Shown here piece by piece: positions 7,674 to 50,630 of a DNA stretch of 56,301 nucleotides. Both the position numbers and the translations under genes were made by a program. This DNA is from Bryobacterales bacterium (GTDB lineage: Bacteria > Acidobacteriota > Terriglobia > Bryobacterales > UBA6623): NCBI GenBank assembly GCA_022823865.1, contig JAJEHF010000219.1, positions 1-56,301 of the forward strand, given 5' to 3'. The notes beneath the pieces were generated by a model. It was not told the DNA's origin. It saw only the letters and a program-made list of their open reading frames with translations, and made no database searches. Every line of letters begins with the position of its first letter. Positions within the stretch are counted from its first letter, which is position 1.

Positions 7674-7681
7674 ACCGGGCG

Positions 7682-10297
7682 ATGTCAGGCAGTCGCTCCG
7701 TCGCAATCGCAACTCTCGCCACAGCTACCTTGGTGCCGTGGGTCTCCGTGGTGCGAGCCCAAGGCCCGCAAGGCCGAGACTACCTTTCGGCAGAGCTGCG
7801 CACGCAGGTCGAGGAACTCCAGCGGTCGGCTTCCAGCGCTTCCACCAGCGCAGAGAATCTGAAGGAACGGCTCGACACACTCTGGCCTTGGATCAACGCA
7901 TACGCGCTAACGGGAGGACCGATGCCCGTCAACGCAACGCTTCAGGTCGCCACCGCCTATCGGGCGATCGAAGCCCTTCGCTTGGACGGGGTTCGGCCCA
8001 GCGCGGGCGCGCTGGCAGCCATCGACGGACTGGTCCACGAGTTCACGATCAAGGACAAGCAGCCGGGAGCGCTTGGCACTGTCACCCTGGAAGTGGCTGG
8101 CCCAGCCCATGTAGGCGCTTGGACAACGATAAAGCAGACCTACACGGTTGGAGAAGCGTCGCTCGGACCGGGCGCCCGGATCATGGTCGCGAAGCAGTTG
8201 CAAGCCGATGGCGGGCTGGTGCAGAACTCTGACCCCGACGGTCCTCACTACCTCTCGGCAAGCACCTCCAACCGCGAGGTCAGGCTGGACAATACATCAT
8301 TCCCCTGGGTGGGGATGCACGGCGGCTTCCGGAGCCCGGCGCCCATGCCCACCTTCAAGGTGGAGGAGGGCACCCTCAAGAGCGGAGACACCGTGACGAT
8401 CGTGTACGGCGATCGCAGCGCCGGATCGGAGGGCTGGCGCCTGCAAACATTCGCCACCGATCAGGCGATGCTGCCGATCTACATCGACTTGGACGGCTCG
8501 GGCAACTTCCTGACGCCGCGCTGGCCGTCCTTTGAGATCGTGGGCGCGGGCGCCGAAGGGGTGACGGCGGTCGTGCCCTCGATCGCCGAGCCCGGCGAAG
8601 AGTTCGACTTGTCGATCCGCTGGGAGGACAGCAACGGCAATCGGGCCACGGCAGCCATGCCGGGCGCAGCGGTCACGCTCAATGGGGGGAGCTTCCGGAC
8701 CCTGGACGCAGGCGGCGACGCGCTGCAAGTGATCGAGGCCGTCCGCCTCGACGAGGAAGGCATCTACCGTTTCGAGGTCACCAGCTCGGACGGCCGGATC
8801 AAGGCGCTGAGCAACCCCGTGTGGGTGCGCAGGGATCCGCCTTACCGCCTGTACTGGGGCGAGACTCACACGCATACCGGCATGGCGGAGGGACAGGGAT
8901 TGATCGTCCGCTCGTACCGGTTCGCCCGCGAGGACGCCCGCCTGGACTTCATGGGGCTGTCCGAGCACGACATCTGGCTGGACGACCTCGAATGGCAGAC
9001 CATGCGACAGGCCGTCGAGAGCAACACGGTTCCGGGCGAGTTCGTAGCGTTCCTCGGCTATGAGTGGACGCTGCGGCGACAGTGGGGCGGGCACCACAAC
9101 GTCTTCTTCCGTTCGCCAGACGCAGGGCGCGTCGGAGCGCAGATAGCGCCCACGCTGACCGGGCTGTACGAGGGCCTGCGCTCCAGGTATGCCACCGAGG
9201 ACGTGTTGATCATCCCGCACGCCCACCAAGCGGGGGACTGGCGGACGAACGATCCGGAAATGGAGACGATGATCGAGATCATGTCGATGCACGGGACGTT
9301 CGAGTGGTTCGGCAACTACTACCTGAGACAAGGCCACCAAGTGGGCTTCCTTGCCGCGTCGGACGACCACCGCTCCCGGCCCGGCTACAGTTGGACGTCC
9401 AGCCGCCAGCCGAATTCCTCGCTGAGCCAGTTCGGCGGCCTGGCCGGCGTGCAGGCGGAAGCGAAGACCGCCGATTCGATCTTCGATTCGCTCAAACGCC
9501 GAAGCGCATATGCCGTCACGGACGCGCAGCGCATCATTCTGGAAATGGAGGTGAACGGCACGGGCATGGGCACCCGCTCGGAATACCGCGACAAGCGCAG
9601 GCTCCGCGCGAAGGTCGTCGGCACGTCGCCGATCCGCCGCGTGGCGGTCGTGAAGAACGGCGCTACGGTCTACACCAGCCGGCCGTTGAGCGTTTCGCTC
9701 TCAAGCAACGCGCAGGTGGTCGTCGGCTTCGCATCGTCGTCGGAACCGTTCTTCCGCGACAATCCCCGGGGCTACCGGCCGTGGACGGGTTCTCTCAAGG
9801 TCGCAGGCGCAAGGCTGGTCGGCATGCGCCCTCTGCACTTCGACAACCAGCACAAGGAATGGGCCCGGACTTCCGCAAGCGACGCGAACACGGTACAGTT
9901 CAGCACGGGCACGCGCGGCCAAGCCGACACGCTCCTGCTCGAGCTCGAGGGCGCATCGCCCTCGACCACGATCACGTTCGACCTAGAGGCGGGCCAAGAG
10001 TGGGGCAAGTCGCCCGTGCCGGTCCGCCCGACGCGCAAGCTGGCCGCGAAGCGCTTCCAGATCGCTCTGAGCGACCTCTCTGACGGATTCGCTCGCAGGG
10101 ACCTCTCCGACACGGTCGACCGCGATGCGGTCACGCTGGAGCTGATCGGTTCCAACCAGCCCATGGATGCCGAGATCGATTTCGCCGATACCGGCGAGAT
10201 GCAGCGCGGAGACTACTACTACGTGCGGGTGGACCAGCTCGACGGAGCAAGGGCATACTCCTCTCCGGTGTGGGTTGGAGGCGAGCCGCGGCGCTGA
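7682..10297 (+). CDS. secreted DUF3604 (PHP-like metal-dependent hydrolase family) protein
   Basis: DUF3604 protein of 871 residues. The ATG at 7682 gives a clean signal peptide (MSGSRSVAIATLATATLVPW, cleavage after VRA near 26); the frame opens further upstream but that part reads as non-coding. Residues about 60-390 look beta-rich. The PHP-like part starts at the metal motif YWGETHTHTG (His396, His398), then GLSEHD, a histidine pair in WGGHHNVFF, IPHAHQAGDW and ASDDHRSRPGY, the expected metal-ligand series. Substrate is unknown; members are often secreted hydrolase-like proteins. Followed 25 bases later by an amidohydrolase gene, suggesting cotranscription. A second DUF3604 protein lies at 15798-18779. 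Confidence 0.88.
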   Translation: MSGSRSVAIATLATATLVPWVSVVRAQGPQGRDYLSAELRTQVEELQRSASSASTSAENLKERLDTLWPWINAYALTGGPMPVNATLQVATAYRAIEALRLDGVRPSAGALAAIDGLVHEFTIKDKQPGALGTVTLEVAGPAHVGAWTTIKQTYTVGEASLGPGARIMVAKQLQADGGLVQNSDPDGPHYLSASTSNREVRLDNTSFPWVGMHGGFRSPAPMPTFKVEEGTLKSGDTVTIVYGDRSAGSEGWRLQTFATDQAMLPIYIDLDGSGNFLTPRWPSFEIVGAGAEGVTAVVPSIAEPGEEFDLSIRWEDSNGNRATAAMPGAAVTLNGGSFRTLDAGGDALQVIEAVRLDEEGIYRFEVTSSDGRIKALSNPVWVRRDPPYRLYWGETHTHTGMAEGQGLIVRSYRFAREDARLDFMGLSEHDIWLDDLEWQTMRQAVESNTVPGEFVAFLGYEWTLRRQWGGHHNVFFRSPDAGRVGAQIAPTLTGLYEGLRSRYATEDVLIIPHAHQAGDWRTNDPEMETMIEIMSMHGTFEWFGNYYLRQGHQVGFLAASDDHRSRPGYSWTSSRQPNSSLSQFGGLAGVQAEAKTADSIFDSLKRRSAYAVTDAQRIILEMEVNGTGMGTRSEYRDKRRLRAKVVGTSPIRRVAVVKNGATVYTSRPLSVSLSSNAQVVVGFASSSEPFFRDNPRGYRPWTGSLKVAGARLVGMRPLHFDNQHKEWARTSASDANTVQFSTGTRGQADTLLLELEGASPSTTITFDLEAGQEWGKSPVPVRPTRKLAAKRFQIALSDLSDGFARRDLSDTVDRDAVTLELIGSNQPMDAEIDFADTGEMQRGDYYYVRVDQLDGARAYSSPVWVGGEPRR

Positions 10298-35132: not shown

Positions 35133-36725
35133 ATGTCTCTTATGGTCGACACCGGGGACATTCCGCAAGGAAACGGATCGGGCTTTAAGCGCTACTGGGG
35201 GCCTGACCTGCTGTCAGGATTCCTGGTCTTCCTCATCGCGCTGCCGCTCTGCCTCGGAATCTCGCTGGCTTGCGGCTACCCGGCCATCGCGGGGATCTTC
35301 ACCGCAATCATCGGCGGGATCGTCGGCACCGTCTTCAGCAACTCCGAGTTGACGATCAAGGGTCCGGCGGCCGGCCTGATCGTAATCGCGATCGGGTGCG
35401 TGACGGACTTCGGCTTCACCGCGGGCCGCGATCCGGCCGCGGACATCGAGGCGTACCGCTTGGCCCTGGGGGTGGGCGTGGTCGCGGGCGTCATCCAGAT
35501 TCTCTTCGGCGTGTTCCGCTCCGGCATCTTGGGCGAGTTCTTCCCCCCGGCCGCCGTCCACGGGCTGCTCGCCTCGATCGGCGTGATTATCTTCGCCAAG
35601 CAGCTGCCCGTCACGCTAGGGCTCGGTTCGGAGGGGACCCCGCTCGAGCTGCTGGCCAGGATTCCCAGCTACTTCACTGACATGCACCCCCAAGTGGGCC
35701 TGATCGGCATCATCAGCTTGGTCATCATGTTCGGATATCCGTTCCTGAAGATTCCGGGCCTGAGGGCCATACCGGCGCCGCTCGTGGTCGTGCTGGTCAC
35801 CGTGCCGCTAGGGCTGCACTACGGCTTGGGGCGGGAGTTCCTCGTCGACGTTCCGTCCAATATGTTTGGCGCCCTGACGTTCCCGGATTTCTCCGGCGTC
35901 GCCACCGCGACAGGTGTCAAGTACATCATTCTCTTCTCGTTGATCGGCAGCCTCGAATCGCTGCTCAGCGCCAAGGCGGTCGACCAGATCGACCCGTACC
36001 GCAGGAAAACCAACTACGATGGCGACCTGCTGGCGATCGGAGTCGGGAACACGGCCTCCGCGTTGGTGGGAGGCCTGCCGATGATCTCCGAGATCGTCCG
36101 CAGCAAGGCGAACATCGACAACGGGGCGAAGACCCGTTTCGCGAACATGCACCACGGCATGTTCCTGTTGGTCTTTGTGGCACTTGCACCCGCGCTGATC
36201 AACATGATCCCTTTGGCCGCCCTCGGAGCGATGCTGGTCTTTACCGGCTTCCGGCTGGCCTCGCCGAAGGAGTTCGTGCACATGTACCACGTGGGCCGCG
36301 AGCAGCTCGTCATCTTCGTCGCCACGATCGTCGGAGTGCTGGCCACGGACCTGCTCGTAGGGATCGGGATCGGGATCTTGGTCAAAGTCATCATCCACCT
36401 CGTGAACGGCGTGCCGGTCGCCTCGCTGTTCCGGCTTCGCGCTGCCGTAGACCGTTCCGAAGATGGAGCCACCGTCACAGTGAGCGACTCGGCCGTGTTC
36501 TCGACCTGGATCGGCCTCAAGAAGCGGCTTGAGGCCCTCAAGGGCGAAACCCGGGTCCGGCTTGACCTGTCGGGGACCGCGCTCGTCGATCACACTGTCA
36601 TGGACCGGCTCCGCGAAATGGAGAAAGAATTCGAAGAAGAGGGGGCACGTCTCGAGATCCAGGGTTTGGATGGACATCGTCCCTTCTCGGACGACCCCAC
36701 TGCCGCCCGCACGAAGAAGTCCTGA
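35133..36725 (+). CDS. SulP-family anion transporter, candidate bicarbonate carrier
   Basis: SulP permease of 530 residues with 10-14 membrane segments and a C-terminal STAS domain (about 440-525, RVRLDLSGTALVDHTVMDRL). The N-terminal signature GFLVFLIALPLCLGISLACG and NSELTIKGPAAGLIVIAIG are typical. SulP proteins exchange or symport sulfate, bicarbonate or other anions; cyanobacterial BicA is one. The DabA gene starts 21 bases downstream, so bicarbonate is the natural guess. The ATG at 35133 is chosen (35142 alternative); a longer upstream frame is GC-rich non-coding. First gene of the apparent 12-kb operon. Confidence 0.92.
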   Translation: MSLMVDTGDIPQGNGSGFKRYWGPDLLSGFLVFLIALPLCLGISLACGYPAIAGIFTAIIGGIVGTVFSNSELTIKGPAAGLIVIAIGCVTDFGFTAGRDPAADIEAYRLALGVGVVAGVIQILFGVFRSGILGEFFPPAAVHGLLASIGVIIFAKQLPVTLGLGSEGTPLELLARIPSYFTDMHPQVGLIGIISLVIMFGYPFLKIPGLRAIPAPLVVVLVTVPLGLHYGLGREFLVDVPSNMFGALTFPDFSGVATATGVKYIILFSLIGSLESLLSAKAVDQIDPYRRKTNYDGDLLAIGVGNTASALVGGLPMISEIVRSKANIDNGAKTRFANMHHGMFLLVFVALAPALINMIPLAALGAMLVFTGFRLASPKEFVHMYHVGREQLVIFVATIVGVLATDLLVGIGIGILVKVIIHLVNGVPVASLFRLRAAVDRSEDGATVTVSDSAVFSTWIGLKKRLEALKGETRVRLDLSGTALVDHTVMDRLREMEKEFEEEGARLEIQGLDGHRPFSDDPTAARTKKS

Positions 36726-36746
36726 GCGGCCAGGCCTAGCATCTCG

Positions 36747-39524
36747 ATGAGTCCCGACCAAGCCCAAGCACTGCGCGAGCAGGTCCTTGAAGCGGCCCGC
36801 CCCGCAGCCCAGATCTGGCCCTTGAAGACCTTCGCCTACCGCAATCCCGTGCGCGGCTACGAAGACCTTCCGTTCGACCAAGGCGTGCGCGAGGCGGCTG
36901 GGATGATCGGAGGGGCCGGCTTTCTAGCGGGCAGCGAATATCGGGACTTTCGGCGTGCCGGCCGGATCTCTGACGCACACCTGCGCCGGGCGCTGGCCCG
37001 GCTAGGCCCTGACAATGCCGAAGGGGCTGTCCACGTCAGCGGCCGGGTCCTCGACGCGGAAGAAGTTGTCTGGGCGCAGTTAACGCAAGGCGTGGAGCCT
37101 CCGTCGCCGTCCGTGCTTGCGTGGCGGGCCAGAGAAGAGGGCAGCACGGCGCTGCTGGCGGCCGCCTCAGAGGCCTGTCCGGGGAATGGGAGTGGCAGCC
37201 AAGGCGCGGTGCCGGACCTGCCGCCGGCGAGGACCCTCAGCGACTGGGTCGCTGAGCTGGCCGGCGTGCCGGTCGTGGACTCGATCAATGACGAGATGAT
37301 CAAGTGGTCGGCGTCGTTCCTCGACGAGGGCATGGCCGGGTGGGGAATGCCTTCCCGGCAAGAGGGCTTCTATCGCTGCTGGCGCGACCTGGCGGGGCGG
37401 GACCGAACAGGTCGATTCCTGGGCATTCCCGACTTCGCGGCGAAGGTGGACGCGCTGCCGGATGCCGCCGAGGCCTGGATCCAACAGGGATTGGAGCGGC
37501 TCGGCATCCCCCCGGAACGATGGAACGAGTACCAGTCGCGCATGTTCGCGCAACTGCCGGGCTGGACCGGATTCGCGCGCTGGAGGAGCGAGAACCCGCA
37601 ATACCCGGCCCAGCGCGAGCACCCTATCGACTTGGTGGACTACCTGGCCGTGAGACTGTTCTACGAGGTCGAGCTGGTCGCCGCCGCCTGCCGCAGGGAA
37701 CTAGGCGTGGCCGGCACGTTGGACGGCATCCGCGCCCGGGCGCGCGAGGAGGCTGGGCACGAAGGGGACGCGGGGGCCCGCGACCTGGCGGTCGGCCGCC
37801 TGTACCAGCTGGCCGTGGTCCTGGGGCTGACTCCGGCCCAAGTCCGCGAGCTGGCCGGCGATGGAGCCAAGACCCTGCTGGGCTGGCTCGAGCGCTTTCC
37901 GGAGGATCAGCACGGGCCAGTTTGGCTGGCGGCCTACGAAGACACCTATGCCGACCATCTGATGGGCAAGCTGGCGGGACACAGCCGGGCGGAACGGGTG
38001 CCCAGCGCCCGGCCGGACGCGCAGCTGATCTTCTGCATCGATGCCCGCTCCGAGCCGTTCCGGCGACACATCGAGGCCTCCGGCAATTACGAGACCTTCG
38101 GCTATGCCGGCTTCTTCGGCGTTCCCTTCAGTCACGAGGCGTTCGACAGCCATGACCGCCTCGCGCTGTGCCCCGTATTGCTGAAGCCACCCCGCGCAGT
38201 CGACGAGGACCCCCGGCCCGGCGAGGAAGCACCACTGGCGAAGTATGCCTCGGGCACGCGTTGGCGGCGCTTCGGAGACGAGCTCTTCCATGACCTGAAG
38301 CAGCACCCCTTGGGCTCGTTCGTGCTGGTCGACGTGCTTGGCCTCCTGTTCAGCGTCGCCTTGGTCGGCAAGACCCTGTTCCAGCGGCCCTACGCCGCGA
38401 TCCGTGCGGTGCTGGCGAGGCGGTTCCGAGCCAAGCTGGAGACGAGCTTTACGCTGGACACGGCCGAAGTCGAATCGGTCGGGCCTAGCGGTTTCACCAT
38501 CGAGGAGAGGGCCGGTTTCGTTGGAGGCGGCCTGCGCATGATCGGGCTGACCGACCCGATGGCCCGGCTGGTGGTTGTGTGCGGGCACGGCTCGGAGTCT
38601 GACAACAATCCGTACGCGGCGGCCTACAACTGCGGCGCCTGCGGGGGAGCGCACGGCGATCCGAACGCGCGAGTGTTCGCCGCCATGGCGAACGACCCGG
38701 TTGTCCGCCGCGCAGTGGCCGAGAGCGGCCTCGAGATTCCCGACGACGTGTGGTTCGTCCCGGCCAAGCACGACACTGCCACCGACCGCGTCTCCTTCTA
38801 CGACCTGATCGACCTGCCAGCGAGCCACCGCGAGGAGCTCAGCCGGCTGGAACGGAGCCTGGCCGCGGCCGGCGCGACGCAGGCAAGCGAGCGGATCGCC
38901 AAGCTGCCGGGCGCGCCGCGAGGCCTGAGCGCGCGCCGCGCCGTGCTTCACGCGATCGGACGCAGCGTAGACTGGGCCAACCCGCGCCCCGAATGGGGGC
39001 TCTCCAGCAACGCGGCATTTCTGATCGGGAGGCGCTGGCTGACCAAGGGGCTGGATCTCGAGGCGCGGGTGTTTCTGCATTCTTACGACCCGGCCAGCGA
39101 CCCTGACGGCGGAATCCTCGAACGCATCATGACCGCTCCGCTCATCGTCGGGGAGTGGATTAACATGGAGTACTATTTCTCCACAGCGGATCCTTGGGTA
39201 TACGGAAGCGGGAGCAAGGTGATCCACAACGTGGTAGGAGGGGTCGGCGTGATGCTGGGCAGCCAAGGCGACCTGCAGGGCGGCCTGCCCGTGCAGGGGG
39301 TAATTGACGGGCCGCGCCGGTACCACGAGCCGATGCGCCTGCTAGCAGTGATCGACGCGCCGGCGGAGAGGATTTCCGCGATTATCGCGAAGCACGAGAT
39401 CCTGCAGGCTCTGTTTCACAACCAGTGGGTGAACCTGCTGGCCTTCGATGCCGACCGCAACGAGTTCCAGAGATACTGCACCGATGCGACTTGGACACGA
39501 CTGACGCTCGAGGCGGCGGCCTGA
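36747..39524 (+). CDS. dabA: DabA-type inorganic carbon transporter subunit (DUF2309/UPF0753)
   Basis: A 925-residue beta-carbonic-anhydrase-like subunit of the DAB inorganic carbon accumulation system, which hydrates CO2 vectorially at the cytoplasmic face. The zinc site is intact: Cys430 and Asp432 in FCIDARSEPFRRHIEASG, His614 in VVCGHGSESDNN and Cys629 in YNCGACGGAHGD. The spacings (2 residues Cys-Asp, 15 residues His-Cys) equal those of characterised DabA from Halothiobacillus (C351/D353, H524/C539). Classical partner DabB, a NuoL-like subunit, is not directly adjacent; instead an Mrp-type module starts 5 bases downstream. No RuBisCO or carboxysome gene lies in the window, so the carbon may serve anaplerosis or pH control. 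Confidence 0.93.
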   Translation: MSPDQAQALREQVLEAARPAAQIWPLKTFAYRNPVRGYEDLPFDQGVREAAGMIGGAGFLAGSEYRDFRRAGRISDAHLRRALARLGPDNAEGAVHVSGRVLDAEEVVWAQLTQGVEPPSPSVLAWRAREEGSTALLAAASEACPGNGSGSQGAVPDLPPARTLSDWVAELAGVPVVDSINDEMIKWSASFLDEGMAGWGMPSRQEGFYRCWRDLAGRDRTGRFLGIPDFAAKVDALPDAAEAWIQQGLERLGIPPERWNEYQSRMFAQLPGWTGFARWRSENPQYPAQREHPIDLVDYLAVRLFYEVELVAAACRRELGVAGTLDGIRARAREEAGHEGDAGARDLAVGRLYQLAVVLGLTPAQVRELAGDGAKTLLGWLERFPEDQHGPVWLAAYEDTYADHLMGKLAGHSRAERVPSARPDAQLIFCIDARSEPFRRHIEASGNYETFGYAGFFGVPFSHEAFDSHDRLALCPVLLKPPRAVDEDPRPGEEAPLAKYASGTRWRRFGDELFHDLKQHPLGSFVLVDVLGLLFSVALVGKTLFQRPYAAIRAVLARRFRAKLETSFTLDTAEVESVGPSGFTIEERAGFVGGGLRMIGLTDPMARLVVVCGHGSESDNNPYAAAYNCGACGGAHGDPNARVFAAMANDPVVRRAVAESGLEIPDDVWFVPAKHDTATDRVSFYDLIDLPASHREELSRLERSLAAAGATQASERIAKLPGAPRGLSARRAVLHAIGRSVDWANPRPEWGLSSNAAFLIGRRWLTKGLDLEARVFLHSYDPASDPDGGILERIMTAPLIVGEWINMEYYFSTADPWVYGSGSKVIHNVVGGVGVMLGSQGDLQGGLPVQGVIDGPRRYHEPMRLLAVIDAPAERISAIIAKHEILQALFHNQWVNLLAFDADRNEFQRYCTDATWTRLTLEAAA

Positions 39525-39529
39525 CTGCG

Positions 39530-40024
39530 ATGAGCGCTCTCTACACCAAGCGCCTGGCCTACTGGACAGTCGTCCTGTTCGTGCTGTGGCTGCTGCTTTC
39601 GGAGAGCTTCAACGCGTTGCACATGGCGGTTGGCCTCGGGGCGGCCTTCCTCGTGGCGCTGCTGCGGACAGACCTTCGCGCCGAGCGGGTCTATGTCATC
39701 CGCTGGTGGAGAGCGCTGCTGTACATACCATGGCTGTTCAGCCGGATGCTCGTAAGCGGCGTTCACGTTTCGTACCTCATCCTTCACCCGCGGTTGCCGA
39801 TCAAGCCCGTGCTCTTCCGCCACCGGGCCGCTTTGGGCAGCGAAGAGGCAGTTCTGCTGATGGGAAACTCCATCACGCTGACCCCGGGGACGGTCACCGT
39901 CGAGGCGGACGCAGAGGAACTGATCGTGCACGCGCTGGACGAGGACTCGACCGGGGACGTGACCAGCCAGAGGCTCGAGAGAATGGTGGCGCGGGTCTTC
40001 CCTGCCGGGGGCGGGCAGGGATGA
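39530..40024 (+). CDS. mrpE: Mrp/Mnh antiporter subunit E
   Basis: A 164-residue MnhE/MrpE (MbhA-type) subunit: two or three membrane helices (WTVVLFVLWLLLSESFN, LHMAVGLGAAFLVALL, LLYIPWLFSRMLVSGVHVSY) and a soluble C-terminal tail with GNSITLTPGTVTV, the family hallmark. It is a structural subunit of the multi-subunit cation/proton antiporter. The ATG at 39530 is 5 bases after the dabA stop, and its stop overlaps mrpF by 4 bases. The coupling to dabA is the reason to treat the cluster as one system. Confidence 0.9.
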   Translation: MSALYTKRLAYWTVVLFVLWLLLSESFNALHMAVGLGAAFLVALLRTDLRAERVYVIRWWRALLYIPWLFSRMLVSGVHVSYLILHPRLPIKPVLFRHRAALGSEEAVLLMGNSITLTPGTVTVEADAEELIVHALDEDSTGDVTSQRLERMVARVFPAGGGQG

Positions 40025-40281
40025 GTCTTCTCTTCGTCCTAGACGTCATCGCGATCCTGATCGTGATGTACCTGTACCGGGTTATCCGGGGGCCGACCGT
40101 GTTCGATCGCCTGTTGGGACTGAACGGCATTTCCACCAAGGCGATCATCCTGCTTGTCGTGATCGGAACCGTGTATGAACGCGTCGAGATGTTCGTTGAC
40201 ATCTCGACCGGCTATGCGCTGCTGAACCTTGTCGGCGTGCTGGCCATCACCAAGTACCTGACCCAGAGGTGGAGGACCTAG
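40021..40281 (+). CDS. mrpF: Mrp/Mnh antiporter subunit F
   Basis: An 86-residue three-helix subunit with the MrpF signature RVIRGPTVFDRLLGLN following the first helix, then TKAIILLVVIGTVY and YALLNLVGVLAITKYL. It matches MnhF/MrpF in length and motif. The ATG overlaps the mrpE stop (ATGA) and the stop overlaps the mrpG GTG by one base (TAGTG). Confidence 0.93.
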   Translation: MSLLFVLDVIAILIVMYLYRVIRGPTVFDRLLGLNGISTKAIILLVVIGTVYERVEMFVDISTGYALLNLVGVLAITKYLTQRWRT

Positions 40282-40580
40282 TGCCGATTGTTGTGACAGC
40301 AATGATTTCCGTCGGCCTGTTCTTCTTGGTCGTCGCGGCCGTCGGGATGGTGCGGCTTCCGGACGTATACACGCGCTCGCATGCGGTCTCGCTGACCGAC
40401 GCCCTGGGCGCATTCTTCGTCCTGACGGGACTGGCGACCTATCACGGAGTCAGTACCAATACATTCCGGATACTTGTCGTGCTCGCGCTGCTGATTCTGG
40501 TGAATCCGGTCATTTCGCACGTAACCGTGCGCGCCGCATTGCGGTCTGGCCAGAAACCCGTCGCGGAGGACCGGCGTTGA
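40281..40580 (+). CDS. mrpG: Mrp/Mnh antiporter subunit G
   Basis: A 99-residue membrane subunit with the MrpG/MnhG signature VGMVRLPDVYTRSHAVSLTD between helices 1 and 2. The GTG at 40281 has GGAGG about five bases upstream; a GTG at 40269 is possible. It is coupled to neighbours on both sides (one base with mrpF, four with the next). Confidence 0.92.
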   Translation: MPIVVTAMISVGLFFLVVAAVGMVRLPDVYTRSHAVSLTDALGAFFVLTGLATYHGVSTNTFRILVVLALLILVNPVISHVTVRAALRSGQKPVAEDRR

Positions 40581-41107
40581 CCTACTCATTCGAGCTGCCG
40601 CTGCTCGCGCTGCTGATCCTAACGGCTGCCGGGGCGATGATTGTCAAGGAACTGATCAGCGCCGTGCTGATCCTCGGAGCCTACAGTTTCTTTCTCGCGC
40701 TGGTCTGGGCTTGGCTGGGGGCGGCGGACGTCGCATTCGTAGAGGCCGTCGTCGGGGCCGGCCTAGCAACCGTGTTCTTCCTGTTGACGCTTTCCCAGAC
40801 TTCTCCAGAGGACACCCGCATCCGAAGGCCTCCTCCTCCGATTATCGCCGTGATCGCGCTTCCGCTTCTGGGTCTGCTCCTGCTGTACGCGGCGAACGAC
40901 CTTCCCGCCTTCGGAGATCCCGGATCCCCGGCCAGCGTGCATGTCTCCCCTCATTACATCGAGAACAGCCTCGCCGACACGCGCACCCCCAACGTGGTGA
41001 CGTCTGTGCTGATGGACTATCGCGTCCTTGACACCCTGATCGAGACGGTCGTTGTCTTCACCTCCGGAATTGCCTGCTGGCTTCTTCTCAGGAGGGATGC
41101 AGAGTGA
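40577..41107 (+). CDS. MbhD/MbhE-like subunit (DUF4040), equivalent to the MrpA C-terminus
   Basis: A 176-residue protein with an N-terminal DUF4040/MbhD block of three helices (KELISAVLILGAYSFFLALV, GAGLATVFFLLTLSQ) and a C-terminal MbhE-like block with ESVNVVTSVLMDYR-type sequence (TPNVVTSVLMDYRVLDTLIE) and a last helix. In Mrp antiporters these segments form the end of MrpA; here they are a separate gene, as in membrane-bound hydrogenase (Mbh) clusters. TTG start at 40577 overlapping the mrpG stop; stop overlaps mrpB by 4 bases. Confidence 0.88.
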   Translation: MTYSFELPLLALLILTAAGAMIVKELISAVLILGAYSFFLALVWAWLGAADVAFVEAVVGAGLATVFFLLTLSQTSPEDTRIRRPPPPIIAVIALPLLGLLLLYAANDLPAFGDPGSPASVHVSPHYIENSLADTRTPNVVTSVLMDYRVLDTLIETVVVFTSGIACWLLLRRDAE

Positions 41108-41556
41108 TCGAAGCTCCGTTTGGCAGTGTCATCGTACGGAGAACCGCCTCGCTGCTGGTCTCTCTGGTACAGCTATTCGCGCTCTATGTCCTCTTCTTCG
41201 GCCAGTACGGGCCCGGTGGCGGCTTTGTCGCGGGAGTGATGATCGCGGCAAGCCTGGTATTCGGCCTGCTCGTGTTCGGAGAGAGCAGTCCGACTGCGCA
41301 ACGGGCTACGCGCCTGCTGGCGGGCGACGGTGTCGGGCTGCTCCTTTTCGTCGCGGTGGGCGGGCTGTGCCTGATCGGGGGCGGCGAGTTTCTCAACTAC
41401 TCACAGGCGCCGATTCCAGGGCTCGACGGCCCGGCCCGTCGGTATCTGGGCATCCTCATGACGCAAGTCGGCGTGGCGCTAGACGTCGCCGTTGCAGCGG
41501 TCTCGATCGTGTTCAGCCTCTCGCGCGACGTCGCAGCTGGGAAGACCGATGCTTGA
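41104..41556 (+). CDS. mrpB: Mrp/Mnh antiporter subunit B
   Basis: A 150-residue MnhB-domain subunit with four helices. The hallmark FFGQYGPGGGFVAGVMIA includes the family's G-x-x-x-P-GGGFxxG signature, and RRYLGILMTQVGVALDVAVA forms the last helix pair. It starts at GTG 41104, overlapping the preceding stop, and its end overlaps the start of mrpC (41549) by 8 bases. Confidence 0.92.
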   Translation: MIEAPFGSVIVRRTASLLVSLVQLFALYVLFFGQYGPGGGFVAGVMIAASLVFGLLVFGESSPTAQRATRLLAGDGVGLLLFVAVGGLCLIGGGEFLNYSQAPIPGLDGPARRYLGILMTQVGVALDVAVAAVSIVFSLSRDVAAGKTDA

Positions 41557-41911
41557 GCTGATCGAAGCGGCTTTGCGCCGGCCCAACCTCGTCGCGTTCG
41601 TCCTGCTACTGCTGTGGGGGCTGTACATCACGATCACCCACCACAACTACGTCAAGAAGCTCGTGGGCCTGTACATCGTCCAGACCAGCGTCATCTTCTT
41701 TCTCGTAGCGACTGGATTCAAGGAAGGTGCCACCGTGCCGGTGATCACGGGAGGGAACGACGATTACGTCAACCCTCTGCCGCAGGTGCTGACGCTGACA
41801 GCAATCGTCGTCCAGATCGCGACGCTGGGCGTCTCGCTGGGGCTGGTTTCGAGGATCTACAGGAAGTTCGGGAGCCTTGACGAGGACGAGGTCTTGGAGA
41901 AGCTGGGATGA
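41549..41911 (+). CDS. mrpC: Mrp subunit C (NuoK-like)
   Basis: A 120-residue NuoK/MrpC homologue with three membrane helices: LVAFVLLLLWGLYITITHHN, KKLVGLYIVQTSVIFFLVA and TLTAIVVQIATLGVSLGLV. MrpC/NuoK subunits sit beside the discontinuous helix of the membrane arm and contribute to ion translocation. It begins inside the last codons of mrpB and ends with ATGA overlap to mrpD, indicating translational coupling. Confidence 0.92.
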   Translation: MLELIEAALRRPNLVAFVLLLLWGLYITITHHNYVKKLVGLYIVQTSVIFFLVATGFKEGATVPVITGGNDDYVNPLPQVLTLTAIVVQIATLGVSLGLVSRIYRKFGSLDEDEVLEKLG

Positions 41912-43377
41912 GCGAGCACCTCCCGGCACTGGTGTTTCTCACACCGCTCGCTACGGCGATCTGCATGCCCTTGGCCGGCCATGGACGGTCGGCAGTGTGT
42001 CGCCCCGTCGCACTGGTCGCCGTCTGCTGCATGGCGGCTCTGTCGCTGGCGAGCCTGTGGTCCGTGTCGGTTCACGGAGAGATCCGGTACTCGTTCAGCG
42101 GATGGCTGCCTCCCATCGGGATCGAATGGCTCGCGGATTCGCTTGCCGCCACGATGGTGACTGCAGTGAGCGTGCTAGGCGTGCTTTGCCTTCTATTCGC
42201 GGACGGACTCGGGGATCGCCCGCTCGGCGACCGCGCTGTCCCATACTACACGATCGTGCTGCTGCTGGTCGCCGGGCTCGCTGGCGCCATCTACGCCGGC
42301 GACTTGTTCAACATCTTCGTGTTCTTGGAAGTGGTCTCGCTGTCGGCCTACGCCCTCGTGGCCGTCCCGGGCGGCCGCGCGCTCGTATCCGCCTTCCGAT
42401 ATCTGTTGATGGGCGCCTTGGGGACCGCCTTCTACCTGCTTGGCGTGGGGTACTTCTACGCCGCGACCGGCACCCTGAACATCGCCGACCTCTCCCAGCG
42501 GCTGCCCGGCCTGCTCGACTCTAGGGCGGTCATGGGCGGTCTGATCTTCATGTTCATCGGGCTGGCTATCAAGATGGCGCTCATGCCGTTGCACGGCTGG
42601 CTTCCCGACGCCTACAGCGACGCTCCGGCCTCGACCGTGCCGCTGCTCGCAGGCTTGGTAACCAAGATCTCGCTGCTGGTCTGGGCGCGGATTCTCTACT
42701 GGGTGATGCAGCCGGGTAGTGATGGCGAGACCCTCACCATATTCACGCTGGTCAGCACATTCGGCATCCTAGCTTCGGTCGCCGGTGCTTGCCTGGCCCT
42801 CGGCCAACGCGACCTGAAGCGAATGTTCGCATATGGCGGGATCTCCCATGTGGGCCTGGTGCTGATCGGGGTCGGACAGGCGAACGAGACGGGGCTCGCA
42901 GGTGCGATGTACTACCTGCTCAACGACGCAGTGATGCAGTGCTCGTTGTTCGTTCTGGCGGGATTCCTGGCCCTGCGATACGGGGCGTCCACGCTGGACG
43001 AACTGGGTCGCGCCCACGTCCGGAACCCTTGGGCGATCGTGACGTTCGTAGCGGTTGGCCTCGGCATGGTCGGCCTCCCGCCCACGGGAGGATTCTTCGG
43101 AAAGCTGAGAATCCTGCTCGGTGCCCTAGAGGCGGACAACACCGTCGCGGCTGGCGCGGTTGTTGTCACGACGCTGATCACTCTGGGCTACTTCGCCCAA
43201 GTCTTTGAGAAGCTCGTTCGCGCGGGCAGTGAGAGCCCCTCTGATCATCAAACGGAGACGCCATGGCCGCTGCGCGCGACCATGGCTGCGCTCGTCGCGG
43301 CAATCGTGGGACTGGGCATCTGGAACGATCAGGTCGTCGCGCTGCTGGTGGACGCCACGGCATCCCTCGGGATATGA
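41908..43377 (+). CDS. mrpD: Mrp subunit D (NuoN/NuoM-like ion-pumping subunit)
   Basis: A 489-residue antiporter-like subunit with about 14 membrane helices. It retains the ion-path residues of the family: Glu141 (NIFVFLEVVSLSAY) and Lys222 (GLAIKMALMPLHGWLP), plus the helix-breaking APASTVPLLAGLVTKI segment. The start overlaps mrpC by 4 bases. It closes the E-F-G-MbhDE-B-C-D order. A 45-base gap separates it from the NuoL-like gene. Confidence 0.92.
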   Translation: MSEHLPALVFLTPLATAICMPLAGHGRSAVCRPVALVAVCCMAALSLASLWSVSVHGEIRYSFSGWLPPIGIEWLADSLAATMVTAVSVLGVLCLLFADGLGDRPLGDRAVPYYTIVLLLVAGLAGAIYAGDLFNIFVFLEVVSLSAYALVAVPGGRALVSAFRYLLMGALGTAFYLLGVGYFYAATGTLNIADLSQRLPGLLDSRAVMGGLIFMFIGLAIKMALMPLHGWLPDAYSDAPASTVPLLAGLVTKISLLVWARILYWVMQPGSDGETLTIFTLVSTFGILASVAGACLALGQRDLKRMFAYGGISHVGLVLIGVGQANETGLAGAMYYLLNDAVMQCSLFVLAGFLALRYGASTLDELGRAHVRNPWAIVTFVAVGLGMVGLPPTGGFFGKLRILLGALEADNTVAAGAVVVTTLITLGYFAQVFEKLVRAGSESPSDHQTETPWPLRATMAALVAAIVGLGIWNDQVVALLVDATASLGI

Positions 43378-43422
43378 CGCTCATGACGGACGCGGCACGC
43401 ACACAGGGGGGCGCTAGCTAGG

Positions 43423-45540
43423 ATGCCACTCTTTGCCCTGATTCCCGGCCTGCCGCTCGCCGCTTTCGTGATCCTGGCGGTAGGCGGGCGTCGCTTCGCC
43501 GACGCCAGCCACCGGGTCGGGATTCCCGCGGTCGGCCTCTCGTTCGCGCTTTCGATCGCAGCGCTGGCAGAGGTGGCCCGAAACGGAGCGCTCTCGATCC
43601 CGCTGTACCGCTTTCTGGACGTGGGCGGCCTTGTCGTCACGGTCGGCCTCTACGCGGACCAGCTCACGGTGCTGCTGCTCCCGCTCATTACGGGGGTCAG
43701 CTTCGTGGTCCATGTCTACTCGGCCCGATACATGACCGGCGACCCGAGGTACCGAAAGTTCTTCGCGGTCATCGGCCTATTCACGTTCGCCATGACGATG
43801 CTGGTCATGAGCGACAACCTGCTGGTGACCTACATGTGCTGGGAGGTGATGGGAATTTGCTCCTATCTCTTGATCTCCCACTGGGCCCACAGGCGCGAAG
43901 CGGCCCAGGCGGCGACAAAGGCGTTTCTGGTCAACGCCGTCGCCGATGTCGGCCTAGGCTTCGGCGTCGTACTCACGTTCGCCACATACGGGACTTTCAA
44001 TATCCAGGAAATCCTTGCCCAAGCTCCCGCCATGCAGGGGCAGACCCTCGGCGCGTTCGGGTTCGAGATCGAGCGGAACACCTTGATCGCGCTGTGCCTG
44101 CTCAGCGGGGCGATCGGCAAGTCGGCACAGGTGCCCATGCACGTGTGGCTGCCCTACGCCATGGAAGCGCCAACACCGGTCTCGGCGCTGATCCACGCTG
44201 CGACGATGGTGAACGCGGGGCCCTTCCTGCTCGCGCGGCTCAGCCCCCTCGTGCTGCTGGCCCCGTCGGCGATGGCAGCAATTGCGGTCGTCGGCGCGAT
44301 CACAGCACTCTACGGCGCGCTGGTCTCGCTCACCCAGTCGGACATCAAGAGGCTGCTGGCCTATTCGACTATCAGCCAGATCGGATTCATGATCTTCGCG
44401 TGCGGTGTCGGCGCATTCGGGGCCGCCATCTTCCACCTCTTGGCGCACGGATTTCTCAAGGCATACCTGTTCCTTTCCACCGGCGAATCCCTCCGGGCCA
44501 CGGGCGGCCACGCGCACGAGGGTCACAGCGTTCCTGCGGGCCGCGCCCGGTCGCTTGCGGCAGGCGCCCTGCTGCTGGCGTGCGTCCCGCCCTTAGTGCT
44601 TTTCTCCGGGCCGTACGAGCAGCTCTGGAACGCGCAGAACGCTCCTGCGGCCCAGGCCGCGTTTTGGGCGGTCGGCCTGGCAGCGGTGTTCCTGACAGCC
44701 GTGTATGCGTTCCGCGGCGTATTCGCCCTGTTTGGCGAGACAGTAGGCAAGTCCGTTCAAGCCCGTCCAAGCCTGTTTTCCGCCGCGCATCTGCCAGTTG
44801 TGGCCATCTGCGGAGTCGCGGTGACGGCGTTGCTGTCCGGGGTGTGGGCTGAGTTCAGCGAATTCCTCCGGCCGGCCCTTGGCGCGCGCTCCGTCGAGAC
44901 CGAGGCCGTGAACCTGACACTCGCACTGTCGATTTCGCTGGTCGTTGCCTTTCTGGGATGGTGCTTCGCATACTATTGCCACCTGCGTCCTGCCGCGGTT
45001 CCCTTTGGGCAGCGCGAATGGGTCAAGACTGCCTACGTGCTGTTCCTGAACAAGCTCTACTTCGACGAGATTCACCAAGCCATCGCCGTGAACCCGACGC
45101 TGAGGGTATCGCGATGGCTGCTGCGCCAACTCGACGACCGCATCATCAACCGGACCGTCCACGAAGTGGGGACAGTCGTCCGGGGCGGTGCCCGGGTGCT
45201 CGAAGGTTCGGCGGAGAGCCGCGTGATCGACCCGGCGGTGACCGGCGTGGCCAGTCTGGTGACAGGTACCGCGCGTTGGCTAGAGAGGCTGACCGAGACG
45301 GGCTTGACGGATCGCGGCCCCCGGGCAGCGGCAACCCTGCTGATTCGGATTTCTGGCTGGCTGTGGCAGGCGGTCGACCGGCAAGGGACCGGCGCAACCT
45401 TACGGCGGGCTGGCAGGGTCGAGGACGAGACCGGAGAGGCGCTGCAGCGCGTGGGGCCCAGGACGTTGCGTCACCATTTGGTAATCATCGTGTGCTGGCT
45501 GTCGCTTGCGATCGGCCTTACGTACTTGCTGGCTAACTGA
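43423..45540 (+). CDS. NuoL/MrpA/DabB-like ion-translocating subunit
   Basis: A 705-residue member of the NuoL/MrpA proton-pumping family, conserved through the core: YADQLTVLLLPLITGVSF, Glu141 (YMCWEVMGICSY), Lys233 (IGKSAQVPMHVWLPYAM), and VSALIHAATMVNAGPFL. It is longer than NuoL (613 in E. coli) or DabB (about 500-560): after the core, residues about 560-680 form a charged amphipathic tail (FLNKLYFDEIHQAI, IINRTVHEVGTVV) ending in a hydrophobic helix. It could serve as the MrpA N-terminal half, as a complex-I-type NuoL, or as DabB. Adjacent dabA makes the last role plausible. Confidence 0.88.
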   Translation: MPLFALIPGLPLAAFVILAVGGRRFADASHRVGIPAVGLSFALSIAALAEVARNGALSIPLYRFLDVGGLVVTVGLYADQLTVLLLPLITGVSFVVHVYSARYMTGDPRYRKFFAVIGLFTFAMTMLVMSDNLLVTYMCWEVMGICSYLLISHWAHRREAAQAATKAFLVNAVADVGLGFGVVLTFATYGTFNIQEILAQAPAMQGQTLGAFGFEIERNTLIALCLLSGAIGKSAQVPMHVWLPYAMEAPTPVSALIHAATMVNAGPFLLARLSPLVLLAPSAMAAIAVVGAITALYGALVSLTQSDIKRLLAYSTISQIGFMIFACGVGAFGAAIFHLLAHGFLKAYLFLSTGESLRATGGHAHEGHSVPAGRARSLAAGALLLACVPPLVLFSGPYEQLWNAQNAPAAQAAFWAVGLAAVFLTAVYAFRGVFALFGETVGKSVQARPSLFSAAHLPVVAICGVAVTALLSGVWAEFSEFLRPALGARSVETEAVNLTLALSISLVVAFLGWCFAYYCHLRPAAVPFGQREWVKTAYVLFLNKLYFDEIHQAIAVNPTLRVSRWLLRQLDDRIINRTVHEVGTVVRGGARVLEGSAESRVIDPAVTGVASLVTGTARWLERLTETGLTDRGPRAAATLLIRISGWLWQAVDRQGTGATLRRAGRVEDETGEALQRVGPRTLRHHLVIIVCWLSLAIGLTYLLAN

Positions 45541-45567
45541 TGGAACCGTGATCAAAAAGAGGCCGCT

Positions 45568-47067
45568 ATGACATCACTCTTCACAGAACACCTGATCACA
45601 TCGCTGATCGCTGTTCCCTTCGTCGGAATCGCTGTCTTGTTCTTCGTTCGGGGCGACGTGTGGGTCCGGCGCGTCGCCTTGGCGGTTTCCATGGTGGCGC
45701 TGGGATTGTCCGGGGTGCTGTGGTGGCGGTTCGATCCGTCCATCGAGGGCATGCAGTTCGTGGAGCGCACCGGTTGGATGGAGAATTTCAATATCCAATA
45801 TGCCGTCGGCGTTGACGGAATCAGCCTGATCCTAGTTCTGCTCACGACACTTCTGGGCCCGCTCTGCGTGCTCGCGTCCTGGACGTCCATCGAAAGCAAG
45901 GTCAGGGCTTACATGATCCTGATACTGCTCGTAGAGGGCGCGATGATCGTCGTCTTCACGGCGCTCGACCTGTTCCTGTTCTTCATGCTGTGGGAAGTCA
46001 CGATGGTTCCCATGTACTTCATGATCATCCTCTGGGGCGGGCCGGGCCGGATACAGGCGGGGCTCAAGTTCGTGCTCTACAGCCTGACCGGCAGCCTGCT
46101 GCTGTTGGTCGGGATTCTCGGCCTGTACTTGCAGACCGGCCGCTCGTTCGACATGCAGGCCATGGCGGGCCACGTCATTCCCGAGGACGTCCAGATCTGG
46201 ATCTTCGCATTCCTGTTCCTCGGATTTGCCATCAAGCTGCCGATGGTTCCCTTCCACTCCTGGCTGCCCGACGCCCACTCGGAGGCTCCGACCGCGGGCA
46301 GCGTGATCCTGGCGGGCGTGTTGCTGAAGATGGGCGGCTACGGTTTCCTCCGTATCTGCCTTCCGGTCCTGCCAGAAGCGGCAGCCGAGTTCGCCCCGTA
46401 CATCCTCTGGCTCTCCATCGTCGGCATCATCTACGGCGGATGTCTCGCACTGGCCCAGTCCGATCTCAAGAAGCTCGTGGCTTACTCCTCGATCTCCCAC
46501 ATGGGATTCGTGACCCTGGGCATCTTCGCATTCAACGAGCAGGGCATCGAGGGGGCCGTGATCCAGATGTTCGCCCACGGCATCTCGACCGGCGCCCTGT
46601 TCCTGGCCATCGGATTCCTGTATGACCGCACGCACAGCCGGATGATCGGCGACTACAGCGGACTGCAAAAGCCGATGCCGCGATTCGTCATTCTGCTGTC
46701 GATCTTCGCCATGGCTTCGTTCGGCCTGCCTGGCATGGGGAACTTCACCGGCGAGTTCTTGGTGCTGCTTGGCACATCCTTCGGCGGAATGCTCAAGGTC
46801 CTGCTCGCGATGAGCGGGATTGTGCTGGCTGCCGCGTATATGCTCTGGATGTTGCAGCGCGTCGCGCTGGGCAAGACGCGCGCGTCTCTCGAATCGCTGC
46901 CGGACCTGAACACGCGCGAAGTGTTTACCCTCGCTCCGCTGGTGGTCGGTGTCTTCGTGGTCGGCCTCATTCCTGGCACGCTCACGAAGAAGCTCGACTC
47001 GACTGTCAAGGGCCTGCTCGAACGCTCGCCTGCGATGATCGAGAGCTCGTCCCCGCCCGGGGGATGA
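45568..47067 (+). CDS. NuoM-like ion-translocating subunit
   Basis: A 499-residue NuoM/MrpD-type subunit, with closest features to complex I NuoM: VGVDGISLILVLLTTLLGPL, Glu143 (FFMLWEVTMVPMYF, equivalent to Glu144 of E. coli NuoM), Lys223 (FAIKLPMVPFHSWLPDAHSE), SDLKKLVAYSSISHMGFV and FNEQGIEGAVIQMF. About 14 membrane helices. It is the last gene of the cluster, 27 bases after the NuoL-like gene. With three pumping subunits (this one, the NuoL-like and MrpD) plus MrpC, the cluster resembles a full complex I membrane arm minus NuoH/A/J. Confidence 0.92.
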   Translation: MTSLFTEHLITSLIAVPFVGIAVLFFVRGDVWVRRVALAVSMVALGLSGVLWWRFDPSIEGMQFVERTGWMENFNIQYAVGVDGISLILVLLTTLLGPLCVLASWTSIESKVRAYMILILLVEGAMIVVFTALDLFLFFMLWEVTMVPMYFMIILWGGPGRIQAGLKFVLYSLTGSLLLLVGILGLYLQTGRSFDMQAMAGHVIPEDVQIWIFAFLFLGFAIKLPMVPFHSWLPDAHSEAPTAGSVILAGVLLKMGGYGFLRICLPVLPEAAAEFAPYILWLSIVGIIYGGCLALAQSDLKKLVAYSSISHMGFVTLGIFAFNEQGIEGAVIQMFAHGISTGALFLAIGFLYDRTHSRMIGDYSGLQKPMPRFVILLSIFAMASFGLPGMGNFTGEFLVLLGTSFGGMLKVLLAMSGIVLAAAYMLWMLQRVALGKTRASLESLPDLNTREVFTLAPLVVGVFVVGLIPGTLTKKLDSTVKGLLERSPAMIESSSPPGG

Positions 47068-49340: not shown

Positions 49341-50630
49341 ATGCAGATGCAAAAGCTCGTCCCAGTCCTTCAGCGCTTTCCCAGCCGAGCTCTCGCGGAT
49401 GTTGCAGGAGCCGTCCGAGAGCGGATGGAGGCAGCCGCCTGGACCCGGCAAGTGCCGGCAGGGAGCCGCATCGCGGTCGGGGTCGGCAGTCGCGGCATCC
49501 GCAATATCGACGTGATCGCCAAGGCGGTGGTCGAGTTCTGGAAATCGCGCGGCGTCCAGCCGTTCATCGTGCCCGTGATGGGCAGCCACGGAGCGGCGAC
49601 CGCCCAAGGCCAGGCGGACGTGCTGGCCCACTACGGAATCGACGAGTCCACCATGGGCGTTCCGGTCGAGAGTTCGCTCGAGGTCGTCCGGGTGGGCACC
49701 ACGCCGGAAGGCATCGAGGTCTCGATGGACCGCCGGGCGCTCGAGAGCGACGGCGTCATGCTTTGCGGGCGGGTCAAGTGGCACACCGACTTCGAGGGCT
49801 CCTTGGAGAGCGGCATTCACAAGATGATGGCGATCGGACTCGGCAAGTGGGAAGGCGCCAAGCGATATCACAGCTGGGCGTTGAAGATCGGCATGGACCA
49901 AGTGATCCGCAGCGTCGGGTCCGCGGTGCTGGCCACGGGCAAGATGCTCGGCGGCCTGGCAATCTTGGAGGACGCCTACCACGACACTGCCGAGGTCCAC
50001 GCGCTGGGTGCCGATGGCATGGCCGAGCGTGAAGAGGAATTGCTGCGCCGGGTCAAGGGGTGGAAGCCGAACCTGCCTGTCAGCGAGGTCGACCTGCTGA
50101 TCTTGGATGAGATCGGCAAGGACATCAGCGGCGCCGGGATGGACACGAAGGTGGTCAATCGCGGCGGCGGGCACGGGCCCAACAACTGGCAGGGCGTTCC
50201 GACCGTGCATCGAATCTTCGTCCGCGACCTGTCAGGCAACACCTACGGAAACGCCATTGGAATGGGCCTGGCGGACATCGTGCACGACCGCCTCGTCAAG
50301 AAGGTCGACTTTCAGGCCACATGGGTCAACGCGCTCACATCCTCGGTCACATCGCCCGGCTTCACGCCGCTGCACTTCGCGACCGATCGCGAGTGCTTGG
50401 AGCGCGTGCTGCCGACGTGCGGCAAGCTCGACCCGGGGACGTGCTCGATCATCTGGATTCGGAATAGCCTGGATCTGTCCTACCTGCTGGCCAGCGAGAA
50501 CCTGCTGGAAGAACTGGCCGCGAACGATTCGATCTCTGTGGAGGGTGAGGCCGCCGCGCTGCCCTTTGGCCCCTCGGGCGACTTGGTCAGCCCGTTCGAG
50601 GCGTCCGCGGCGCGCCACACGGCCGCGTGA
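49341..50630 (+). CDS. LarA-like nickel-pincer isomerase family protein (DUF2088, group 22)
   Basis: A 429-residue member of the lactate racemase (LarA) superfamily. Visible family features: GSRIAVGVGSRGIRNID, VPVMGSHGAATAQGQ (cofactor-site His), GRVKWHTDFEGS and IHKMMAIGLGKWEG with a further His, then EVDLLILDEIGKDISGAGMD. The length matches the group without a C-terminal extension. Characterised LarA enzymes need a nickel-pincer nucleotide made by LarB/C/E; none of those genes is in the window, so activity and substrate are open. Located 29 bases after the PpiD-like gene, probably cotranscribed. Confidence 0.86.
   Translation: MQMQKLVPVLQRFPSRALADVAGAVRERMEAAAWTRQVPAGSRIAVGVGSRGIRNIDVIAKAVVEFWKSRGVQPFIVPVMGSHGAATAQGQADVLAHYGIDESTMGVPVESSLEVVRVGTTPEGIEVSMDRRALESDGVMLCGRVKWHTDFEGSLESGIHKMMAIGLGKWEGAKRYHSWALKIGMDQVIRSVGSAVLATGKMLGGLAILEDAYHDTAEVHALGADGMAEREEELLRRVKGWKPNLPVSEVDLLILDEIGKDISGAGMDTKVVNRGGGHGPNNWQGVPTVHRIFVRDLSGNTYGNAIGMGLADIVHDRLVKKVDFQATWVNALTSSVTSPGFTPLHFATDRECLERVLPTCGKLDPGTCSIIWIRNSLDLSYLLASENLLEELAANDSISVEGEAAALPFGPSGDLVSPFEASAARHTAA

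Follow-up and report, generated by a model that had tools for sequence, protein, structure and literature searches.

The closest described relatives of the locus considered here are the DAB2/DAC systems (DabA2-DabB2 of Halothiobacillus neapolitanus; MpsAB of Staphylococcus), in which a zinc-bearing PF10070 head with an acidic membrane finger is paired with a partner devoid of the lysine of transmembrane helix 12 (TM12). According to the structural work on DAB2, the finger hairpin of DabA2 enters the membrane beside DabB2, its Glu444 replaces Lys399/Asp400 of E. coli NuoL TM12b, and mutants of Glu444 lose activity in vivo (PMC13144422). A broader gene class was in print by 2017, namely ybcC upstream of nuoL together with SulP and NuoM genes (the COGNAT 'clade C' YbcC operons), for which several translocated ions were guessed; MrpE-G, MrpB, MrpC and MrpD are not named in the accessible part of that paper (PMC5700660). 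In 2020, 'Ca. Nitrospira alkalitolerans' was reported to have Mrp genes with NuoM/NuoL-like genes after mrpD and with nhaB and bicA nearby, all understood as antiporter plus symporter, and the section on this locus makes no mention of DabA/DUF2309 (PMC7784846). The main text of a 2024 DAC review contains neither the word Mrp nor the word NuoL (PMC10880623). Here we analyse a stretch of 56,301 nucleotides (the window; contig JAJEHF010000219.1 of a Bryobacterales bacterium, Acidobacteriota), in which an eleven-gene array on the plus strand at 35133-47067 encodes, in this order, SulP, DabA, MrpE, MrpF, MrpG, an MbhD/E-like protein (A'), MrpB, MrpC, MrpD, a NuoL-like and a NuoM-like subunit. The parts of this array are already in print; its new element appears to be the union of DabA with Mrp, for which no published example was found in the open-licence literature.

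Based on the comparisons reported below, we consider it reasonably likely that the products of the array form one membrane complex, a member of the complex I/Mrp superfamily that would bear DabA as a CO2-hydrating head, not a redox arm, on its NuoL-like tip. Such a complex would be a relative of the DAB CO2-hydrating pump with several channels. All eleven genes have Pfam matches exceeding the cut-off, and they follow each other with gaps of 21 (SulP-DabA), 5 (DabA-MrpE), 45 (MrpD-NuoL) and 27 bases (NuoL-NuoM), the junctions from MrpE to MrpD being overlaps of 4-13 bases each. Coordinates and Pfam matches thus bear out the eleven plus-strand genes with gaps or overlaps of 45 bases or less that a preliminary description of this DNA had listed; of its phrase 'fused by operon', the tight gene array stands, 'operon' being an array read from coordinates. 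The Mrp subunits B-G and the MrpA C-terminal domain are all present, and full-length MrpA is replaced by the NuoL-like protein. Pfam matches of the eleven proteins revealed no second MrpA N-domain, and profile searches found no redox arm, NuoH or NuoN among the eleven genes. The gene order MrpE-F-G-MbhD/E-B-C-D is presumably that of Mbh. With Mrp, the Mbh/Mbs arms and complex I the array shares antiporter-like subunits with Glu/Lys pairs, and those previously assigned (MrpD E141/K222, NuoL-like E141/K233, NuoM-like E143/K223) were confirmed. It differs from all of these in having DabA and no redox or hydrogenase subunits, and from Mrp in that MrpA is split and its N-domain replaced by a NuoL-like subunit lacking the TM12 lysine. 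With no other MrpA N-domain in the array, DabA and Mrp are both left with the NuoL-like protein as their sole candidate partner, which is an argument for one complex.

Surveys for DabA-Mrp linkage covered two phyla, Acidobacteriota and Nitrospirota. A scan of GTDB r220 contigs identified Bryobacterales and other Acidobacteria metagenome assemblies as the closest named relatives (14 of 23 loci), the other nine being Nitrospira. A PF10070 search of 100 genomes, the host's own included, detected DabA in 47 of them (49 matches), and models built from the window proteins were used to type the neighbours of the 48 DabA loci outside the window and of two comparison regions of the host genome. The full array (type 1) was found at 14 loci besides the window, in all ten relatives from the genus and in four from the family; 23 loci have DabA with NuoL- and NuoM-type genes, often with SulP (type 2); ten have NuoL-DabA pairs (type 3); and one (L087) has a piece of DabA alone. 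Among 17 genus and family relatives, 14 are of type 1, one is of type 2, and two are without DabA (one of them 74% complete). The A' protein (alignment A2) served as marker for the second phylum. It matched in 96 of 396 Acidobacteriota genomes, with only the window's own copy above 133 bits, and no DabA lay within the fetched stretch of 20 other Acidobacteriota loci thus identified. Twelve of 175 Nitrospiraceae genomes matched, one at 237 bits (G569); in a set of 395 Nitrospirota genomes, G569 among them, 65 matched, 21 at 229-316 bits and the next at 178. No match was obtained in nine Nitrospira genomes, and a scan of viral_contigs with A2 returned no relative.

Scripted scoring recovered the order DabA-E-F-G-A'-B-C-D-L-M at all 14 Bryobacterales loci and at 17 of the 21 Nitrospirota loci, the window besides. 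Neither this order nor DabA occurred in any of 41 lower-scoring Mrp loci of both phyla, four of which (L155, L213, L278, L283) stop short of MrpE or have less than 1 kb of sequence upstream of it, so that the absence of DabA there says little. The conserved order exceeds chance, with the window and 31 other collinear loci from two phyla standing against none of 41, and the notion of an array found only in this genome, named earlier as the outcome of a synteny survey that would speak against the union, is rejected. At one of the 17 collinear loci (L258), DabA and MrpE are 7 kb apart, with a canonical dabBA pair lying between them on the opposite strand. In the five genomes that contain this locus and the four that were not collinear within the stretch fetched, type-1 DabA (1386-1426 bits) is present throughout: behind a canonical insert on the Mrp contig in G774 and G777, about 260 kb from Mrp in G738, which is co-occurrence without linkage, and on contigs other than that of Mrp in G915 and G948, the G948 gene having one TAA within the matched frame. 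Overall, this DabA type accompanies this Mrp type in all 36 genomes that have the latter. Among 123 DabA-bearing plasmid records, the five regions read contain no Mrp genes. In one such plasmid, of Nitrobacter hamburgensis (L163), a cassette that occurs twice next to carboxysome genes encodes a transporter subunit, a hypothetical protein, a DUF2309 protein and PII.

The residues expected at a DabA-NuoL joint provide evidence of a different kind. The Cys-Asp-Arg-His-Cys zinc set of DAB/DAC is present in the window DabA, where C430/D432/H614/C629 align to DabA2 C351/D353/H524/C539, in agreement with the zinc ligands proposed earlier, and R434 aligns to R355. Two further points had been missed. 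At the site of DabA2 Glu444 the window DabA has Asp529, a conservative change and not an identity, and TM12 of the NuoL-like subunit reads LFSGPYEQ where NuoL reads GFFSKDE, the lysine thus being lost. All 39 DabA proteins of this kind have Asp at the finger site (15/15 Bryobacterales, 16/16 Nitrospirota and 8/8 Nitrospira rows), compared to Glu in 10/10 of type 3 and no acid in 22/22 rows of type 2. The TM12 lysine occurs in none of 35 type-1 NuoL-like proteins (SGPYEQ-type in 15/15 Bryobacterales; no Lys in 20/20 Nitrospirota), and it is absent likewise from the NuoL of Mrp-less Nitrospira (WGPYEQ, 5/5). It is retained in E. coli NuoL, in the host's own MrpA and in all 31 rows of Acidobacteriota complex I NuoL (30 genes, the host's own gene entered twice). 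DabA-less Mrp loci, used as controls, keep it in the main MrpD (39/39), in the aligned second MrpD (37/37, three more showing a gap) and in 26 of 27 third subunits, the remaining one having Arg; loss of the lysine as a habit of split Mrp sets is therefore rejected. That the lysine is lost where a finger-acid DabA goes with this type of NuoL constitutes the main evidence for docking of DabA on the NuoL-like subunit. All 35 NuoL-like proteins also have a broken E144/R175 gating pair, with Glu kept and Arg lost, the reverse of DabB2. The host's own MrpA is also without the Arg, so that this break is given little weight and Arg175 loss as a mark of DAB is rejected. The array also departs from DAB2/DAC by the finger acid, Asp instead of Glu, and by eight further membrane genes of Mrp/NuoM kind plus SulP. 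Together with two-phylum synteny and the 36/36 co-occurrence, the finger/TM12 pair lends good support to the earlier assignment of DabA to the Mrp/NuoL/NuoM array.

Other combinations of these elements were noted along the way. In two Nitrospirota genomes (L257, L258, L307) both DabA types are adjacent: type-1 DabA and MrpE are separated by a canonical dabA/NuoL pair of opposite orientation, which has the finger Glu and a NuoL with Gln for E144. The order-level relatives of type 2, which show the 'clade C' layout, have a distinct DabA with mostly CIDEREES for CIDxRSE and a finger site without acid (e.g. L039-L048, L050, L052-L054, L057, L073-L076), and their NuoL-like partner is short and gives no TM12 alignment; type 2 is perhaps a third way of building the DabA-NuoL joint. 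The length of the lateral helix, judged by eye, does not separate the types. A long DabA at 3782-8143 of L254 (G582) combines the CIDEREES zinc motif with the finger Asp, and no NuoL or Mrp match occurs in that 16 kb stretch.

The affinities of the subunits were traced by quick maximum-likelihood trees. The NuoL-like proteins of type 1 and of Nitrospira form one clade (support of 99-100 in the Shimodaira-Hasegawa-like approximate likelihood ratio test), apart from complex I NuoL and from DabB, and a recent copy of the host's own complex I NuoL is rejected by this separate clade. The window DabA shares 44-45% identity with Nitrospira DabA and 33-35% with types 2 and 3. No DabA outside the type is closer than that of the Nitrospira DabA-NuoL-NuoM loci, which also share its TM12/finger pair. 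They differ from the array in being without MrpE-D; SulP lies behind in L106, L108, L110 and L111, and the L106 DabA is split across two frames. Both trees, of DabA and of NuoL, join the Mrp-bearing L211 to Mrp-less Nitrospira as sisters (98 and 89), which suggests that the Mrp genes were probably lost there, not newly gained, a lean and not a result in view of the program's long-branch warning at the L211/Nitrospira join. In the DabA tree, the row T1n_L257 stands for the canonical DabA of its locus; the length filter removed L273, L274, L254, the rows of type 3 and, of the five plasmid loci, four. L211 has DabA at the head of its array, and a CitMHS/ArsB/NhaB-family gene and SulP after it; given these two genes, it may be of the same kind as the 'Ca. 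N. alkalitolerans' locus.

With respect to the coupling ion, the sodium route of B. pseudofirmus Mrp (PMC9568556) was taken as reference, and the type-1 rows compared seem to include one from the DabA-less second Mrp cluster of L275 (22 rows, 21 loci). That Nitrospirota locus, a DabA-less Mrp cluster back to back with a DabA-Mrp cluster, offers a natural comparison pair. Equivalents of MrpA D678, D771 (36/37), D776 and E780 and of MrpB F41 are kept. Changed are MrpA E687 to Gly, with a Glu one turn earlier kept as in Mbs, MrpF D38 to Asn or Ala, and MrpB H34 to Gln (36/37); in 35/36 the MrpB D121 site is occupied by Tyr, Ser, His or Phe. The changes of MrpF D38 and MrpA E687 are common to DabA-less split Mrp sets, and loss of the MrpF Asp as special to this type is rejected on these grounds. 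MrpB Arg112 and Asp127 do mark the type (33/36 and 35/36, respectively), and Arg113 is also common in DabA-less loci. With residues partly kept and partly changed, Na+ is a candidate coupling ion, not an established one. The earlier proposal of sodium- or proton-driven bicarbonate/CO2 uptake is partly supported, in its union of DabA with the array.

Starting from the gene order, its conservation, the co-occurrence and the finger/TM12 pair, all read directly from sequence, we infer assembly, subunit order, CO2 hydration and its direction, the number and kind of ions and the part of SulP. The arm would be built in the order MrpE, F, G, A', B, C - MrpD - NuoM-like - NuoL-like. The DabA finger hairpin would insert at TM12 of the NuoL-like subunit, with Asp529 completing the half-channel in place of the NuoL lysine. 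Ions flowing down the membrane gradient through the arm would then open the buried zinc site of DabA and drive CO2 hydration to bicarbonate in one direction only. This is the mechanism put forward for DAB2, except that DabA could here draw on three antiporter-like subunits, compared to the one of DAB2; SulP would supply or balance bicarbonate. A function related to dissolved inorganic carbon is suggested by homology. Understood in this way, the array may represent a branch of its own within the complex I superfamily, new in having a β-carbonic anhydrase-like head in place of the redox arm, where DabA plugs the half-channel of a NuoL lacking the TM12 lysine, at the tip of a NuoM-MrpD-Mrp arm, for multi-ion CO2 hydration; this fuller proposal is a tentative one, which we regard as possible more than probable.

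Several observations weigh against a single DabA-headed complex. Of 16 Nitrospirota loci with close linkage, 10 have DabA and MrpE 0.3-1.9 kb apart and only 6 have them less than 50 bases apart. Mrp-less Nitrospira (L105, L106, L108, L110, L111) keep DabA-NuoL-NuoM at all five loci long enough, four with SulP behind, so that the Mrp genes are not always needed. The NuoL-like subunit keeps E144, which is absent in DabB (E144 to Ile151), and the tree suggested earlier for the 43423-45540 protein places it outside the DabB clade and nearer complex I NuoL, as do its best matches (P0004: respiratory NuoL/NdhF, with 8e9g_L at 288 bits compared to DabB2 at 127 bits). The structure model of P0004 is weak (predicted local distance difference test, pLDDT, 61), resembling the L subunit of complex I overall with TM12-14 not placeable. 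In the DabA model (pLDDT 76.5) the finger consists of helices 494-517 and 521-544, at low local confidence; searched with this model, Foldseek found nothing significant (E 0.001 or better), 9rd0 did not appear among the matches listed (50 of 131), and the β-carbonic anhydrase matches were weak. There is some room, though we think it rather unlikely, for two machines in one regulon: a DAB pump of DabA and the NuoL-like (plus NuoM-like) subunit, next to a MrpE-D antiporter setting the Na+ gradient for a BicA-like SulP. Besides the Mrp-less Nitrospira loci, the position of SulP just upstream of DabA at 15 of 15 Bryobacterales loci, window included, fits such a division of labour, and so does the published model for clusters of Mrp and bicA (PMC7784846, which cites Fukaya 2009). 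A free Mrp would lack its MrpA N-domain in the array, however, and many DabA-less split Mrp loci hold extra antiporter subunits as well, with the TM12 lysine in all those aligned, bar one Arg. The window SulP reaches 120.3 bits with the BicA equivalog model, far below the cut-off of 880, and SulP lies upstream of DabA, on the same strand and within about 1.3 kb, at only 5 of 16 closely linked Nitrospirota loci; some residues of the Na+ route are changed, as described.

The genome of the host bears on what the array might be for. The window is contig C6 of an assembly of 6.07 Mb (231 contigs, 94% complete), in which a single DabA was found, so that the separate canonical dabAB pair considered as a counter-indication in the preliminary description did not turn up. 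Its eight PF00361 matches comprise three in the array, three strong ones close together on C30, where NuoL- and NuoM-like genes are read as the true complex I, and two on C160, a separate and canonical Mrp set; the array as remnant of a canonical Mrp is rejected in view of the latter. No match to the RuBisCO large chain was found in this genome at 94% completeness, and one β-carbonic anhydrase is present. A Calvin-cycle CO2-concentrating role is therefore unsupported in this organism, which need not be an autotroph; DabA is not its sole protein of carbonic anhydrase type, and a pump is not evidently needed, a further point on the opposing side. Under these circumstances, pH or ion homeostasis could be envisaged in place of carbon supply, with DabA consuming or supplying protons by CO2/bicarbonate interconversion and the arm acting as an H+ (or Na+) antiporter, the canonical Mrp leaving the array free for such a task. 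We judge this improbable, given that DAB2 without membrane potential does not hydrate CO2 and is proposed to act one way (PMC13144422), and that a heterotroph, S. aureus, uses MpsAB to grow in air (PMC6689103). Operation in reverse, with bicarbonate dehydration by DabA pumping ions outward, appears very improbable: its general form, ion export by YbcC/NuoL from an exergonic reaction, was proposed before the function of DabA was known (PMC5700660), and three antiporter-like subunits do resemble complex I, but the authors of the DAB2 structure reason against operation as a dehydrating enzyme (PMC13144422). One complex in which DabA hydrates CO2 on the NuoL-like tip remains the reading we prefer.

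Table 1. Features of the DabA-Mrp array in window coordinates
Feature	Position	Strand	Basis and remarks
SulP-family anion transporter	35133..36725	+	PF00916 182.7 bits; 21 bp before DabA; alternative start of the open reading frame at 34962, start adopted 35133
DabA, 925 aa, β-carbonic anhydrase-like Zn protein	36747..39524	+	PF10070 853.7 bits; aligned to DabA2 9rd0_A
DabA membrane finger hairpin, residues ~494-544	38226..38378	+	Alignments; Asp529 codon 38331-38333 at the DabA2 Glu444 site
MrpE	39530..40024	+	PF01899
MrpF	40021..40281	+	PF04066; PDB relatives
MrpG	40269..40580	+	PF03334; TIGR01300 over cut-off
A', MrpA C-terminal-domain-like (MbhD/MbhE, DUF4040)	40577..41107	+	PF13244, PF20501; NF009159 over cut-off
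MrpB	41104..41556	+	PF04039; PDB relatives
MrpC	41549..41911	+	PF00420; NF005624 over cut-off
MrpD, with E141, K222, TM12 K399	41908..43377	+	PF00361 190 bits
NuoL-like subunit, 705 aa, proposed DabA-docking (DabB-equivalent)	43423..45540	+	TIGR01974 494 bits; trees
GPYEQ, residues 396-400, in TM12 of the NuoL-like subunit	44608..44622	+	SKDE in NuoL; TM12 Lys lost
NuoM-like subunit, with E143, K223, TM12 Glu396	45568..47067	+	TIGR01972 593.5 bits (cut-off 263.8)

The array is flanked by a gene with a weak SH3-like match upstream and by a PpiD/SurA-like gene downstream. Elsewhere in the window, two large proteins match DUF3604 (7322-10297, plus strand; 15798-18779, minus strand, a weak match), the first also matching a CehA/McbA metallohydrolase model under its cut-off, and 49341-50630 (plus strand) encodes a nickel-pincer-cofactor isomerase of NCBIfam group 22, over cut-off. 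At L063 (from 15758), in another genome (G006), SulP is directly preceded by NuoM-type genes that were read as complex I.

Lastly, the analysis suggests what such a complex would mean for the protein families involved. The class of SulP/DabA/NuoL/NuoM loci in print since 2017 (PMC5700660) already made the two-gene view of the DAB system, as taken in the preliminary description, too narrow; if the proposal is true, DAB pumps would be extended to a multi-channel form in Nitrospirota and in Bryobacterales of the Acidobacteriota, and coupling to several ions would give a steeper bicarbonate gradient than a two-subunit DAB. The finger/TM12 pair makes docking directly testable by two point mutants. 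Complex I-type arms would, if the proposal holds, gain a non-redox partner of known chemistry, and long-range coupling in complex I and Mrp would become accessible to study with CO2 hydration as the read-out.

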